Below are positions 1 through 8,171 of a stretch of 38,090 bases of DNA, piece after piece. The stretch is from an uncultured Desulfocapsa sp. (lineage in GTDB: Bacteria; Desulfobacterota; Desulfobulbia; Desulfobulbales; Desulfocapsaceae). The notes under the pieces are model-generated. The model was given only the letters and a program-made list of their open reading frames with translations. It searched no databases and was not told the DNA's origin. The stretch's first letter is position 1. Each line of letters begins with the position of its first letter. The position numbers and the translations under genes were made by a program. The DNA is taken from the NCBI GenBank assembly GCA_947311475.1, contig CAMZLK010000124.1, positions 1-38,090 on the forward strand, read 5' to 3'.

Positions 1-126
1 ACGTGATTCCAGACTCATTTGACCACCCTTTTCAAGTCGTTGGATTGTGCGTACGCTGATTCCGCTACACTCTGCAAGTTGCTCCTGGCTCCATGCCCGC
101 TGTAAACGTAATTTCTTGATATCCAT
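1..126 (-). CDS. XRE-family HTH transcriptional regulator, 3' part cut by window edge
   Basis: Reading the minus strand from the ATG at 126 gives 42 codons running off the left edge. The peptide begins MDIKKLRLQRAWSQEQLAE and continues with SVRTIQRLEKG, the usual helix-turn-helix of XRE/Cro proteins (SQEQLAE first helix, GISVRTIQRLE recognition helix). A GGAG box lies about 8 bases before the ATG. The pattern LRxxRxWSQEQLAxxSGxSVRTIQRxE is common in small regulators that carry a C-terminal membrane (2TM) segment, but that part is outside the window. It is probably autoregulated through the palindrome at 154-169. The family call is secure for the N-terminus; total length and C-terminal domain are unknown. 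Confidence 0.8.
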   Translation of the reverse strand, partial: MDIKKLRLQRAWSQEQLAECSGISVRTIQRLEKGGQMSLESR

Positions 127-153
127 AATAACTCCTGATTTTAAGTTGTTATT

Positions 154-169
154 TGTATACCAGTATACA
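154..169. promoter_or_regulatory. Perfect inverted repeat, candidate operator of the XRE gene
   Basis: TGTATAC-CA-GTATACA is a perfect 7-bp inverted repeat with a 2-base centre. It lies 28 bases upstream of the start codon of the minus-strand XRE gene, where its promoter should be. XRE repressors typically bind such palindromes and repress themselves. The function is inferred; the symmetry is seen. Confidence 0.5.
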
Positions 170-564
170 TTGTTTAAGGAGTTTGAACACGACATCTCTA
201 TGACATTAATGAGCCAACACTTCTTATCGTGTTGTATTTTTGTAGTATATTTCGAGGGTTGAACAATTTGGCGGGTTACTTATGTTGCCTTGTCGGTAGT
301 GTGTTATGTCAGCATATTTTATTTGATACCCTCTCATGGGATTGATTTTGTGTGTGAAATGCATTTAACTGGATTATGTGCATGCCGAATATGTAAATTG
401 TTTTTTTAAGCAAGCTTTATGGAAGTTGGATCATTGCTGATATCCTGTTTCTTGATAGCATCTGTTTTTTGAGTGATATCCGGTTAGAAATCGTGTGTCA
501 TGGATGGAACAGGTTGTCAAGATAACCTTTTTTGTGGTGATATCAGGAAACTGGAGAATAACTT
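170..564. other. AT-rich intergenic stretch without a recognisable gene
   Basis: About 395 bases between the XRE regulator and the cassette boundary. I see no ORF with a credible start and family match. A short imperfect hairpin (GGTTGTC / GATAACC) lies near 510-530. GTTATGT at 303-309 is identical to the last seven bases of the attC at 1301-1307, but no folded attC-like repeat surrounds it. Confidence 0.4.
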
Positions 565-571
565 GTTAGCC
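565..571 (+). other. Cassette 5' core site (attC-type R half, GTTAGCC)
   Basis: GTTAGCC lies 15 bases upstream of the ATG at 587, the usual place for the core site at the left end of an integron cassette. It is the exact reverse complement of the R'' box GGCTAAC at 1227-1233. In known cassettes the last six bases of the free attC move to the left end on integration, so this match between left core and R'' is expected only of a true cassette. It deviates from GTTRRRY at the sixth base. Confidence 0.55.
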
Positions 572-1301
572 AATAAAGAGTAACTAATGGAACAATTCCT
601 TATAGCGTTGCTGATAGCTCTGATAGGTACATACATTGCGTATCTTCTGACGAAATCATATGGCCGTTGGAAAGAGAAGAAAATGCGTTTATCTGAATTT
701 TCGGAAAAATTACAACACACATTGCCGGAAATCAGAAAAGGCGTACTGGAAGCTTATCTTTTTAGCAGTGATTTAAGTGAGTACGTCTCGGTGTTGAAAA
801 AGAACGAGTTAAAATTGGGATACAAGTTTTTGCCAGACAATGTAAAAGCACATATAGAAAAAACATCCGATTCGTTAAGCGATTTTGTCAAAGAATTTAG
901 ACTGCTGAGTAATCACTTATACCCTTACTTTGAAGGTATGAAAAACCGAAGAGGGCAAGGTTTTGAAAATATCAATACCATTGTCGCCACGAAACTGATC
1001 TGCATGGAACAAAAAGAACTACCAAGAGATAAAACGGTAATCAATTTTCCACGAGATACGAGAGGTCATTTTTCCCAAGTACAGTGTCAACCTGATCAGG
1101 TAGCGGAAATATGGAATTTGGGGCAAGAGGGAAATGGCGAGCAATTTCAATACATAAGAACAACAATCCTAGACCATATTGACGAATTAGAAAAGATGTT
1201 AGAAAAGCTCCATCGTGTATGGTAATGGCTAACAATGCCATAAACTCGGACGCCAAAATGTTGCGCTGCGCTCCACATTTTGGCTCCGGTTATGGCTAGC
1301 G
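566..1301 (+). mobile_element. Integron-like gene cassette (one ORF plus attC), no integrase nearby
   Basis: The segment runs from the base after G565 to G1301, the positions where an integron integrase would cut. It holds a single ORF (587-1225) that fills it, with its stop codon one base before the attC R'' box. Short leader, one gene and a terminal attC is the standard cassette plan. No tyrosine recombinase is present in the 38-kb window, so this would be a solitary or integrase-less cassette, or the edge of an array extending left. The boundaries are inferred from the core sites. Confidence 0.6.
587..1225 (+). CDS. Hypothetical membrane-anchored protein, cassette-borne
   Basis: 212 residues. 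The N-terminus (about residues 4-24, MEQFLIALLIALIGTYIAYL) is a single hydrophobic helix, followed by a basic stretch (GRWKEKKMR) that suggests the rest stays in the cytoplasm. The remaining ~185 residues are charged and mostly helical, with no motif I recognise. The C-terminal segment (IRTTILDHIDELEKMLEKLHRVW) looks amphipathic or coiled coil. The start is supported by its distance from the 5' core site; the ribosome binding site (AAAGAG) is weak, which is common in cassettes. The stop is directly followed by an attC. Its function is unknown; many cassettes carry such small unique proteins, some in phage defence, but nothing in the sequence shows that here. Confidence 0.65.
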   Translation: MEQFLIALLIALIGTYIAYLLTKSYGRWKEKKMRLSEFSEKLQHTLPEIRKGVLEAYLFSSDLSEYVSVLKKNELKLGYKFLPDNVKAHIEKTSDSLSDFVKEFRLLSNHLYPYFEGMKNRRGQGFENINTIVATKLICMEQKELPRDKTVINFPRDTRGHFSQVQCQPDQVAEIWNLGQEGNGEQFQYIRTTILDHIDELEKMLEKLHRVW

Positions 1302-1307
1302 TTATGT
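1227..1307 (+). other. attC recombination site of an integron cassette
   Basis: 81 bases with the layout of an attC. R'' is GGCTAAC at 1227-1233 and R' is GTTATGT at 1301-1307. Between them is a long imperfect stem: GCCATAA (1237-1243) pairs with TTATGGC (1290-1296), CGGA (1247-1250) with TCCG (1285-1288), and GCCAAAATGT (1252-1261) with ACATTTTGGC (1275-1284), leaving unpaired bases such as C1251 and a 13-base loop. Unpaired bases on one arm are what the integrase reads in folded bottom-strand attC sites. R' does not match R'' fully, as expected because its last six bases belong to whatever follows. Confidence 0.75.
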
Positions 1308-1316
1308 CTCCCTAAG

Positions 1317-1356
1317 GTACAATTTGACGCACCAGTAAAAGTACGTTATTGTGTAC
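1317..1356. promoter_or_regulatory. Phased GTAC motifs upstream of a Phd/YefM antitoxin
   Basis: GTAC occurs at 1317-1320, 1341-1344 and 1353-1356, with GCAC at 1329-1332 filling the missing step, so four sites fall on an exact 12-base period just upstream of the antitoxin gene. The operator of E. coli yefM-yoeB contains TGTACA palindromes one helical turn or so apart. This is a likely autoregulatory operator; the spacing is seen, the function is inferred. Confidence 0.45.
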
Positions 1357-1383
1357 GCAGAATGATAACTTTGAGGTGACATC

Positions 1384-1665
1384 ATGCCAAGACTTAGAAT
1401 TGACCAAGATATACGATCCATGTCTGAATTCAGAACGGGAATTGCTTCTTTTCTGAAACAAGTTCACGACACCAAAAGACCTCTCATAATTACTCAGCAT
1501 GGGAAAGGAGCTGCGGTTCTATTAGATGTTGGGGAATATGAATCAATGCAAGAAAAAATTGAATTGCTTAAAGATATTCAAATCTCTGTCAGCCAAATTG
1601 AAAATGGAGAGGGCATAGAGCACCAAAATGCCAAAGAAATGATCCTTAAAAGTGTTTCGGCATGA
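1384..1665 (+). CDS. Type II antitoxin, Phd/YefM family
   Basis: 93 residues. The N-terminal half has the Phd/YefM plan: a short strand, then SMSEFRTGIASFLKQVHDTKRPLIITQHGKG followed by AAVLLDVGEYESM (position ~45-58), the region that dimerises and binds operator DNA. The C-terminal tail is acidic to neutral and should wrap the toxin. A GAGGTGAC box precedes the ATG. The gene overlaps the downstream toxin by four bases (ATGATAA-type junction), so the two are translated together. Placed directly after an attC, it could be the next cassette of an array; toxin-antitoxin pairs are frequent in cassette arrays. Phased GTAC sites upstream suggest autorepression. Confidence 0.85.
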   Translation: MPRLRIDQDIRSMSEFRTGIASFLKQVHDTKRPLIITQHGKGAAVLLDVGEYESMQEKIELLKDIQISVSQIENGEGIEHQNAKEMILKSVSA

Positions 1666-1970
1666 TAATTATATGGTCTCCTTTGGCAGTGGAGAGAACC
1701 TCTGAAATTGCTGGTTATATCACAATTGACAACCCATCTGCTGCGAAATCGTGGGTGGAAAAGGTATTTGAGAAAGTTGACTTGTTGAAATTATCGCCTG
1801 AAATGGGTCGGGAGGTTCCAGAAATTTCGAGAAAGGAGATTAGAGAAATTATCTTTGCTAACTATCGCATTATTTACCGAATTGAAAAAACAAAATTATC
1901 TATTCTCACTGTCCGTCATGGCAAACAGATATTGCCAGTTGATGAAATATTGGAGACAGATTTACAATGA
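1662..1970 (+). CDS. Type II toxin, ParE/RelE superfamily
   Basis: 102 residues. It starts MIIIWSPLAVERTSEIAGYI, the first strand and long helix of the ParE/RelE fold. The middle holds KVDLLKLSPEMGREVPEI and the C-terminal strands carry REIIFANYRIIYRI and LTVRHGKQILP, the conserved RELxxxNYRxxYxx and VxHxRQxL patterns of the family. ParE members inhibit gyrase and RelE members cut mRNA; sequence alone does not settle which applies, although the pairing with a Phd-type antitoxin occurs with both. It overlaps the antitoxin by four bases. No attC could be found downstream, so cassette status is unproven. Confidence 0.85.
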   Translation: MIIIWSPLAVERTSEIAGYITIDNPSAAKSWVEKVFEKVDLLKLSPEMGREVPEISRKEIREIIFANYRIIYRIEKTKLSILTVRHGKQILPVDEILETDLQ

Positions 1971-1974
1971 ACCT

Positions 1975-2009
1975 GGAAAAAGGGGAAAAAGGGGACAGAT
2001 TTATTTTTC
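1975..2009 (+). repeat. Degenerate GGGGACAG-type repeat half
   Basis: An AAAAAGGGGACAGATTTATTTTT-like segment follows the toxin stop codon. It shares the GGGGACAGA core of the palindromes at 33927, 34378 and 35154 but has no inverted partner here. It is probably an eroded or partial member of that REP-like family. Confidence 0.45.
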
Positions 2010-2096
2010 GGACAATGCGATGGGGCGCATACTGCATAACTTTTCTGGCTGTATGAGGCATGAATAAAATCCCTCAACCAGGCAAAAAATAATAAC

Positions 2097-2208
2097 TAAC
2101 GCAGATGAACTGCAAGTAAGTGTCTTGGTGATATAACGTAACAATATGATTGCGATTGACTCTCCTCAGTTTCGTGTTTTTTATTGCAGAAATCATGAAG
2201 TAAGGCAT
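2097..2208 (+). repeat. Copy A of ~110-bp intergenic repeat family
   Basis: It begins TAACGCAGATGAACTGCAAG and ends TTATTGCAGAAATCATGAAG followed by TAAGGCA. It is closely similar to copy D at 7261-7373 and related to the copies at 6074-6182, 6183-6294, 18198-18305 and 26172-26261. The 5' end forms a small hairpin, GCAG-ATGAA-CTGC. It holds no ORF. Confidence 0.75.
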
Positions 2209-2228
2209 TGAAAAATAAATCCCCTATT

Positions 2229-2362
2229 CTCGAGCAGTCCCTGTTCGAGTACCTTGAAAGGTTCCGCTAAAGGCTACATTTATTAAGGTACTTGAGCAGA
2301 AGTCGTCCTAATACCGGATACCCGCAAAAAAAAGTACGATCTGGATTAGGCCGATTCTGCTC
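2229..2362 (+). promoter_or_regulatory. Structured leader upstream of the octaheme cytochrome
   Basis: Three nested or consecutive inverted repeats lie between repeat A and the cytochrome start. CTCGAGCAG (2229-2237) pairs with CTGTTCGAG (2241-2249) with one wobble. GAGTACCTT near 2247-2255 can pair alternatively with AAGGTACTT (2285-2293). A long imperfect hairpin spans 2294-2362: GAGCAGAA with TTCTGCTC, TCG with CGA, then CCTAAT with ATTAGG. Mutually exclusive pairings and a 38-base gap to the start codon suggest a cis-acting RNA. It matches no riboswitch class I know. Confidence 0.45.
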
Positions 2363-2399
2363 AGTGCGACGTTACATACTTTACCTTGGGAGAGGAAAA

Positions 2400-4178
2400 A
2401 TGATTATTCGATCGTTTGCATGGCAGTTACTTACCGCAGTATTACTGACAACAGGGATTATCTGGCTACCTCCTTTAGCGTGGAGTTCGGAATCTGCCTC
2501 ATCTGTAGAAACCTTACCCGTTGCTTCAGGAAAAGCCCCAACAGTAAGCAGTGGTCAAAAATATTTTGAAGGTGCGACATATGCAGGTTCAGAATCGTGT
2601 AAGAGTTGTCACGAAAAGGCTTATACCAGCTGGAAAAATTCATGGCACAGTAAGGCTAATCGTCCTGTTCGTCCTGAGATAATGGACCCAAATTTTGATA
2701 ATGTCGAGTTGAAATTTACAAAGCCTAAAAAACTCATGGATGCCAAAGGAAAAGCTGTGAAAGACAAGGTAACTGTTTCCATGCGTCTGCATCGTGAAGA
2801 TGATAAGTTTCTTTTTACAATAATTGATAGTAGTAATCCCAAAAATAACCAGACACATGAGGTTGCATTTGTTCGTGGTGGTAACTGGGAGCAGCACTAT
2901 TATGCAAAAGTTGGTGATAATCTTTTTCCTACTCCTATGCGTTGGGTAGTTGCCGATAAAGCATGGCGAAAAAAGGGATATAATCCAGGGTACTGGTGGG
3001 TTTACAAAGACGGACAGGCTGTGCCGCGTACACCCGATGAGTTTCTTGATATAAATTACCGCTCAGTCGAAGTGAAATGTGCTGGATGCCATCAGCTTGG
3101 ATATGTGCCCGCATATGATAAAGAAACAAAATTATGGAACGGAACCAGAGTCGAATATGGTGTTACGTGCGAACATTGCCATGGACCGGGAAGTCTCCAT
3201 AACGAGCAAGCCAGAAAAGCTGAGAAAGATGGTGTTAAACTTGAGAATACAGCGATTATAAACCCGGTAACGGATCTGACGTCTCTACAACAGATTCAGC
3301 TTTGTGCAACATGTCATATTCGGGGGAATAACAGTGCGTCCATGAAGAAGTTCGGCAAGAAGAAGAGTTTCGGTTTTCAGCTTGGTTTTCTTCCTGGAGA
3401 TCAGGATCTGCACGATCGGTTTGTACCATGGACATATTTTGGTGAAGGCAAGATTAAAAGTTTTTGGCCTAATAATCAAAATCGCAAAAACCGTCAGCAA
3501 TACCTGGACTTAGTGCAGAGTAAGCACTTTACAGAGGGCATAACCTGTAATACCTGTCATTCCACTTGCAGTGCAACAGCTAATCGTGATCTCAGGATGA
3601 AAAAAGAGGATATTTGTAATAATTGTCATAATGAAAGCGGGAGAGCAAAACGACCCAATATGGAGATGTTTATGGGTTCCACAATGCAAATGGCTGGTGT
3701 GACATGTGTGAATTGCCACATGCCTCTTGTTGTGTATGGCTCTGCCGGTACCGACAAAGTAAAACAGCATTGGGATCGTCGTTCTCATACCTTTAACTCC
3801 ATTAACCCCGAGCATAAAGATCGTTGGGGGATGCGGGTGGCCTGTGATCAATGTCATGTAAAACCTGAAAAAGGTGAGATTTCCCGTGTTATTAAAGCTT
3901 ATGCTATTCAGTCCAATGAACAAAGTCATCAATTATTAAAAGGACATCAAACAGCAATTCGCGAAAAAATTACCACTGCTCAGGAAGCCATTGCGGCTGC
4001 CGAAAAAGCACTTATTGGAAGTAAAGTAGGTGCTGCACAAGGTAAACTTGCTCAAGCACGGCAAAAGGTCTCCTTTGTAGTGCTCGATGGCAGTTGGGGC
4101 TTTCATAACTTCACCAAGGCAAATGCTATGCTTGATGAGGCCATTGGTCTTGCTTCTGCTGTGAAGAAGGCAAACTGA
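2400..4178 (+). CDS. Periplasmic octaheme c-type cytochrome (cytochrome c554-like)
   Basis: 592 residues from the ATG at 2400, chosen because GGGAGAGGAAAA lies directly before it and a signal peptide follows (IIRSFAWQLLTAVLLTTGII, cleavage near AWSSES). An in-frame start 36 codons earlier would bury the signal. Eight CXXCH heme sites are visible: CKSCH, CAGCH, CEHCH, CATCH, CNTCH, CNNCH, CVNCH and CDQCH. The first (YAGSESCKSCHEKAYTSW) and the CEHCHGPGSLH block are typical of cytochrome c554-type proteins; the C-terminal helical tail (HNFTKANAMLDEAIGLA) resembles the helices that end NrfA and hydroxylamine-oxidoreductase-like cytochromes. It should carry electrons in the periplasm; the donor and acceptor are unknown. 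No membrane anchor is seen after the signal. A weak hairpin terminator follows. Confidence 0.85.
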   Translation: MIIRSFAWQLLTAVLLTTGIIWLPPLAWSSESASSVETLPVASGKAPTVSSGQKYFEGATYAGSESCKSCHEKAYTSWKNSWHSKANRPVRPEIMDPNFDNVELKFTKPKKLMDAKGKAVKDKVTVSMRLHREDDKFLFTIIDSSNPKNNQTHEVAFVRGGNWEQHYYAKVGDNLFPTPMRWVVADKAWRKKGYNPGYWWVYKDGQAVPRTPDEFLDINYRSVEVKCAGCHQLGYVPAYDKETKLWNGTRVEYGVTCEHCHGPGSLHNEQARKAEKDGVKLENTAIINPVTDLTSLQQIQLCATCHIRGNNSASMKKFGKKKSFGFQLGFLPGDQDLHDRFVPWTYFGEGKIKSFWPNNQNRKNRQQYLDLVQSKHFTEGITCNTCHSTCSATANRDLRMKKEDICNNCHNESGRAKRPNMEMFMGSTMQMAGVTCVNCHMPLVVYGSAGTDKVKQHWDRRSHTFNSINPEHKDRWGMRVACDQCHVKPEKGEISRVIKAYAIQSNEQSHQLLKGHQTAIREKITTAQEAIAAAEKALIGSKVGAAQGKLAQARQKVSFVVLDGSWGFHNFTKANAMLDEAIGLASAVKKAN

Positions 4179-7260: not shown

Positions 7261-7373
7261 CTAACGCAGGTGAACTGCAAGTAAGTTCTTGGTGGTATAA
7301 CATGATAATATGATTGCAATTACCCCTCCCCAGTTTCTTGTTTTATATTGCAGAAATCATGAAGTAAGGCACT
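7261..7373 (+). repeat. Copy D of ~110-bp intergenic repeat family, overlapping a gene end
   Basis: It begins CTAACGCAGGTGAACTGCAA and ends GAAGTAAGGCACT, closest to copy A. It lies inside the orp-like operon, and 54 of its bases are read as the last 17 codons plus stop of the ATPase gene 7320-8171. The terminal hairpin is GCAG-GTGAA-CTGC. Confidence 0.75.
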
Positions 7374-8171
7374 AAAAACTGCGCGGAACTCTGGTACTGT
7401 TTCCACAAGAGTTTTTCCTCGTGCGTATCCTTCGGCGATGTCACGTTGAAATGGGATTTCAAGGAGCACTGGAATATTTTCAGCTTCACAATAGTTTTTT
7501 ACACCCTTATTTCCAAGATCAGATCGGTTAATGATAACACCAGCGGGTATCTTGAAATTGTTTAGAACTGTTACGGCAAGCTTTAAGTCATGGAGGCCAA
7601 ATGGAGTTGGCTCGGTAACAAGTATTACATAATCAGCGTCACCGATACTTTCAACAAAAGGACATGAAGTACCGGGGGGAGCATCAATTATGACCAGCTT
7701 TTCAGGATCAGCTTTTTGTTTTACCGCTTTTAAGAGTGGAACTCCCATGGCCTCTCCAATGCGGACACGGCCGTGGACAAAATGGATATCGCCTGCCATA
7801 CCAGATTCCAGAAGCCCGATTTCTCTCTTTTCCCTGATGAGTGCATCTTCTTCACAAACCAGAAAACAGCCCAGGCAGGAGTGACACATTTCCGGAAACA
7901 GCATTACGTTTTCGCCAAATTGAACAATTGCATTAAAACTGCAAATATCCCGGCATTTTCCACAGGCAGTACAGCGCGACTCATCAAGCTTTGGGATAGT
8001 TACAAAACAGGTTTCGCTGAAATCAAATTCAGGTTTTAGAAATATATGTCCGTTTGGCTCTTCTACATCACAGTCAAGGTATTGAGTCGCTGTATCTGCG
8101 CTTAGAGCAAGGCTGGTGGAAATTGTTGTTTTTCCCGTGCCCCCTTTGCCGCTGGCAACCGCTATCTGCAT
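7320..8171 (-). CDS. MinD-superfamily P-loop ATPase with inserted ferredoxin domain, second paralogue
   Basis: 283 residues with the same plan as its neighbour at 6302-7210. GKGGTGKT lies at 8-15, then two cysteine clusters, CTACGKCRDIC (C67-C77) and CHSCLGCFLVC (about 96-106), then KLVIIDAPPGTSCPFVES and VTEPTPFGLHDLKLAV. The A-to-P change in the DAPPGTSC motif is typical of one of the two orp/NifB-associated paralogues. A GGAG box lies about ten bases before the ATG. The C-terminal segment ALLHDFCNIKQETGEG and the stop codon are supplied by repeat D, so the original 3' end was probably replaced. It likely forms a heterodimer or alternates with the other ATPase. Confidence 0.85.
   Translation of the reverse strand: MQIAVASGKGGTGKTTISTSLALSADTATQYLDCDVEEPNGHIFLKPEFDFSETCFVTIPKLDESRCTACGKCRDICSFNAIVQFGENVMLFPEMCHSCLGCFLVCEEDALIREKREIGLLESGMAGDIHFVHGRVRIGEAMGVPLLKAVKQKADPEKLVIIDAPPGTSCPFVESIGDADYVILVTEPTPFGLHDLKLAVTVLNNFKIPAGVIINRSDLGNKGVKNYCEAENIPVLLEIPFQRDIAEGYARGKTLVETVPEFRAVFSALLHDFCNIKQETGEG

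Follow-up and report, generated by a model that had tools for sequence, protein, structure and literature searches.

Integrons are bacterial platforms for gene capture. Clusters of attC sites with no accompanying integron integrase (CALINs) have been described, with single-attC cases accepted as possible true positives among them, and attI sites outside class 1 are undetected by the standard program and poorly described (PMC9024848). Sedentary chromosomal integrons with an inactivated intI also occur, for example in Xanthomonas (PMC12444791). The delta-attI gene cassettes belong to class 1 and 2 integrons (PMC12901181), and the experimental insertion of cassettes at attG sites (Loot et al. 2024) enters here through its citation in PMC11023631 and its discussion in PMC12901181.

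The locus detailed here is part of a 38,090-nucleotide stretch from an uncultured Desulfocapsa sp. (the window), which is one complete contig (C124) of a 3.16-Mb draft genome that is 95.6 per cent complete. Positions 420–2092 of the window very probably represent a decayed integron that retains an attI site and two cassettes and has lost its integrase.

The cassettes

Cassette 1 extends from 566 to 1301 on the forward strand, as placed by its core, R'' and R' positions. The insertion core GTTAGCC (565–571) combines the G of attI with the TTAGCC of the cassette and is the exact reverse complement of R'' (GGCTAAC, 1227–1233). R'' and R' (GTTATGT, 1301–1307), with 81 bp between their outer ends, delimit a forward-strand attC at 1227–1307 of which the bottom strand folds. 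As single-stranded DNA this strand reaches −21.1 kcal/mol against −10.2 ± 2.1 for shuffled sequences (z −5.25), a value equalled by none of 200 shuffles, and the unpaired bases of the fold are mostly confined to one arm. By its attC fold, with R''/R' and L''/L' complementarity, and its core/R'' complementarity, 565–1307 is an integron gene cassette. The first 31 bases of attC occur once in the genome, and a scan against Rfam at gathering thresholds gave no match. An earlier note on this DNA had bounded the open reading frame by GTTAGCC on the left and an 81-bp attC on the right, with letters and coordinates that are all correct, and had pointed out both the unpaired bases on one arm and a left core that complements R'' rather than R'. 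Its proposal that the cassette was inserted by way of a cut circular intermediate is accepted here as the standard asymmetric integron reaction.

The open frame of cassette 1 (P0001, 587–1225, forward strand) encodes 212 amino acids with an N-terminal hydrophobic helix, and is an orphan that probably carries a membrane anchor, much as the earlier note's unknown membrane protein would have it. No homologue was found in 258 genomes of the order, GTDB, viral contigs or plasmids, no match was returned by PADLOC, and nothing in Pfam rose above threshold (best VTT, 18.9 bits against a cut-off of 33.9). An AlphaFold2 model from single-sequence input had a pLDDT of 42 and was set aside. By analogy with its counterparts at homologous attI sites, our best guess, a weak one, is that P0001 may be an accessory or defence gene. 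Its expression would be driven by a promoter within attI or close to it; a promoter scan returned 7 sites against 6.1 expected from shuffling.

The cassette is not solitary, as had been claimed, because a Phd/ParE cassette (1302–2092, forward strand, the right boundary being putative) follows it and is 71 per cent identical to a cassette at G101:C48. Its genes encode a Phd/YefM antitoxin (1384–1665; PF02604, 72.9 bits) and a ParE toxin (1662–1970; PF05016, 68 bits), both on the forward strand, and the adjacency of these families predicts a toxin–antitoxin system. Homology between G101:C48 and the window starts at 1299; in G101:C48 the pair begins at a core GTTATGC, is preceded by an attC with a z of −8.9 and sits between attC-like sites. 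The check for homologues beside other attC sites, which the earlier note had proposed for its open frame, applied to this neighbouring pair only. A copy in G098 has its 5' end in common with cassette 2, and G114 has the genes in common. The 3' end is less clear. A possible degenerate attC (2034–2092, forward strand) folds weakly (z −1.9) and has an R'' of GCATAAC against the expected ACATAAC, no R' was found, and the right half of attI, GTTAAYATTGCCA, which would be expected after cassette 2, is absent. The 3' end of the cassette was probably broken by a repeat at 2097. This dispersed repeat of ∼115 bp (2097–2215) has ∼20 copies in the genome, one of them at window positions 7261–7378, occurs in relatives as well and holds AAGTAAGGCACTA near its right end. 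At 1975–2007 there is also a AAAGGGGACAGATTTATTTTT-type stretch, REP-type-like, with 88 per cent identity over 33 bp in G099:C3.

The attI site and integron integrases

To the left of the cassettes lies an element at 430–567 (forward strand) that was delimited by BLAST and by a model (R1), contains three GATATC-containing repeats and ends in TAACTTG|TT. Window positions 420–567 align with four sites of the same genus (three in G111 and one in G101) at 72–77 per cent identity, among them G111:C147 (E = 1e-21, 77 per cent), where the alignment stops at 567. All four alignments break off at 567–568, beyond which gene content differs between the homologous loci; further sites were recovered via short matches. 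The point G|TT is where integron recombination crosses over. The coincidence of the end of homology with this point leads us to read the left flank as an attI site rather than anonymous DNA, an assignment made on sequence homology. Insertion of the cassette at a plain genomic site was dropped as a candidate when this homology emerged. Model R1, built on nine attI sequences of which the window is one, scores the window attI at 96 bits. The sequence AACTTGTTAGCC occurs exactly only in the core region of the window and at the attI of contig C119 of the same genome.

The attI type of the window directly adjoins IntI genes at C119, G114:C1, L148 and L152, so that attI beside a divergent intI is the arrangement of the family, of which the window copy displays the cassette side only. 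A possible remnant of an intI start is present on the minus strand at 420–434, where MIQLP is followed by a stop; cognate integrases start with MIQIP, MLKIP or MIKLP at a similar distance from the core. The match is short and positional, and it is suggestive only of five surviving intI codons, which could have arisen by chance.

No intI was found in window positions 1–2400, which do not amount to a complete integron. The contig starts only ∼430 bp left of attI, and the statement that no integrase is near depends on this limited room together with synteny to G116. The 5' end of a gene for an HTH (XRE-type) regulator (1–126, minus strand), truncated by the contig end, is a chromosomal neighbour outside the integron, and its region is 82 per cent identical over 137 bp to G116:C59:24293-24429. 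That contig aligns to window positions 2–138 and again from 4367 onward, with nothing between, and the region from attI to the probable cytochrome gene is therefore an insertion relative to G116 or a loss in G116. In G116 the locus is occupied by ∼440 bp of other DNA and is thus no clean empty site. The region absent from G116 includes a long open reading frame with CxxCH motifs (2292–4178), a probable multihaem cytochrome c.

The earlier note's description of the cassette as integrase-less stands for the window; other contigs of the genome do encode integron integrases. Its account of an integron cassette is in this sense partly supported, being mostly right and incomplete on attI, cassette 2 and these integrases. 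Contig C39 encodes an intact IntI (388 bits, exceeding the TIGR02249 cut-off), C119 has a frameshifted IntI beside an attI of the window type, and fragments of a third, shorter IntI type are present at contig ends. The attI of C39 (AAAAAAG|TTCGCT) is unlike that of the window, and its IntI need not serve the window attI. The C39 locus has a cassette of its own (L002 80-1160), with a core GTTCGCT that matches R'' AGCGAAC. An intact IntI of 471 amino acids accompanies a window-type attI in G114:C1; the leading cassette there pairs a GTTGGGC core with an R'' of GCCCAAC.

A dispersed family of attI sites

Model R1 matched in nine of 20 genomes of the genus (E ≤ 0.01) and in 36 of 93 genomes of the family (E ≤ 1e-6), with a maximum of eight sites in one genome. 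The attI core pattern returned 89 stretches in GTDB, mostly in Desulfobacterota with several in Planctomycetota. Eighty-one GTDB attI sites were re-found (chance expectation ∼1–3 by our own estimate), some of which are loci of the genus set, so that the two sets overlap. In 395 genomes of the phylum the core pattern had seven matches and a reversed-pattern control none. Of 76 homologous attI sites, 25 showed an exact core/R'' match together with a hairpin; in 20 permutations of the cores the mean number was 0.7 and the highest 2. The right half GTTAAYATTGCCA follows the cassette at six loci.

Integrase genes near attI were sought with a profile of 18 IntIs (17 open frames and C119) at the 59 GTDB sites with at least 1.7 kb of left flank. 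Three sites have a full-length intI, at one of which (L145) the N-terminus is in a separate frame, six have a remnant, and 50 have no adjacent intI, two of these having a non-adjacent match. Two attI copies in G111 (C17 and C22) are 99.3 per cent identical over 138 bp and have unrelated sequence to either side; between L179 and L182 of JAQUKQ, 260 bp are 100 per cent identical. Ordinary decay accounts for the lost intI, but not by itself for many near-identical short units. A pattern search for an empty attI, in which the core is joined to the right half (2 mismatches), gave no clear case; its matches were mostly a separate dispersed repeat. One idea, which derives from two loci (L031 and L033), is that the attI unit might itself be mobile, as a cassette without an ORF set between GTTAAYATTGCCA repeats.

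Several further observations concern the surroundings of these sites. ATGGTTAAYATTGCCA is a dispersed repeat in genomes of the family (L031 1667, minus strand; L033 1484, plus strand; L250, L256 and L259). At two loci it adjoins the attI unit on the left, and by its likeness to the attI right half, direct repeats may bracket the unit. At L160 one contig has a pair of equally oriented attI cores 2.2 kb apart. At G111:C22 3734 (L056) an IS91-like insertion, made up of a tyrosine recombinase and a zinc-ribbon transposase, is situated directly at the attI core GTTGAAC, and the insert is not a cassette.

A scan covered 38 open reading frames, including that of G111:C22, which is the source of a Phage_integrase match. 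The first open reading frames after attI sites of this family encode three TIR proteins, a caspase-like protein, a NACHT/KAP-type NTPase, a DUF3800 protein and others, and many have no assigned family. The TIR, caspase-like and NACHT/KAP cassettes make attI sites places to seek defence genes as well.

Origin of the locus and comparison with described systems

The view that the window holds a decayed integron builds on attI homology that runs to the crossover, the core/R'' match, the attC fold, the toxin–antitoxin pair as a cassette elsewhere and a contig without integrase. An integrase of the C119 type would once have been encoded on the minus strand to the left of attI, starting at the MIQLP remnant, and circular cassettes would have been inserted at TAACTTG|TT. 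The Phd/ParE cassette would have arrived earlier and the P0001 cassette later, in front of it, an order read from position, the most recent cassette being the one placed beside attI. After that the gene for the integrase would have been lost, presumably by deletion rather than replacement, leaving attI and two cassettes where the relative G116 has none. The window attC may still be recombinable in trans by the intact IntI of C39, the attI of which differs. Several points count against this history: the five codons may be chance, GTTAAYATTGCCA is absent, the second attC folds weakly, the G116 site is not clean, and the left 430 bp stop at the contig edge, so that the region beyond is unseen.

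There is some reason to think that attI was instead copied here alone, as a short unit, with an IntI from another locus supplying cassettes in trans. The 50 of 59 sites without an adjacent intI and the six with no more than a remnant speak for such copying, as do the near-identical copies in G111 and JAQUKQ, the unrelated flanks in G111, the cassettes with matching cores at such sites and the up to eight sites per genome. Against it, what looks like an intI start with five codons survives in the window, clear intI remnants persist at G111 C147, G101 C48, G101 C49 and G100 C101 as decay predicts, and no intact IntI with a window-type attI was found in G111, the genome with the most sites; we regard this origin as unlikely for the window. 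A wider proposal, that the integron of Desulfobacterota and some Planctomycetota consists of distributed attI acceptors with single cassettes and an integrase acting in trans, is likewise a doubtful one at present. Insertion at a non-classical genomic site (attG), with a left flank of plain chromosome, has the precedent of insertion outside attI (Loot et al. 2024, as cited in PMC11023631) and the absence of the locus in G116 in its favor, yet is contradicted by a left flank that is a ∼138-bp element common to intI-adjacent attI sites, and we consider it very improbable. Least credible of all is that the features arose by chance, or that the hairpin is an ordinary terminator next to an orphan gene. 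Hairpins are common, the open frame is an orphan and Rfam is silent, but this reading is contradicted by a core that matches R'' exactly, by attI homology that is accurate to the base, by the second cassette and by the 25 matching sites against 0.7 under permutation.

A sequence-defined attI family would allow integrase-less integrons to be found by way of their attI, even those with a single cassette, which searches for attC pass over. Solo attI sites pose the question of whether they are leftovers of decayed integrons or acceptors used in trans; if the distributed proposal were true, each cassette would gain a genomic context of its own instead of a place in an array queue, and an integrase encoded elsewhere would serve all. 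In the open-access literature searched for orphan, solo or ectopic attI sites no such family was found, and the numerous integrase-less attI sites provisionally look new.

Among known systems, CALINs resemble this locus in having attC cassettes with no intI nearby, and differ in that the window retains a recognisable attI. Their definition asks for no fewer than two attC sites and no intI; the window, with one certain attC and a second that is at best degenerate, would fall under this default threshold of two. Insertion at attG likewise places a cassette away from a complete integron, but its target is a degenerate genomic site, whereas that in the window is a conserved attI. In delta-attI cassettes attI sequence is also found away from its usual place, as fragments downstream of the open reading frame and inside arrays (PMC12901181); the attI of the window, in contrast, is ∼138 bp long and upstream, with no integrase. 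The likeness to Xanthomonas is an intI that is broken or lost and cassettes that are frozen in place. Xanthomonas, however, has one ancestral intI locus beside ilvD with CALINs elsewhere (PMC12444791), whereas the attI family reported here comprises many homologous sites scattered over unrelated loci, most of them lacking intI.
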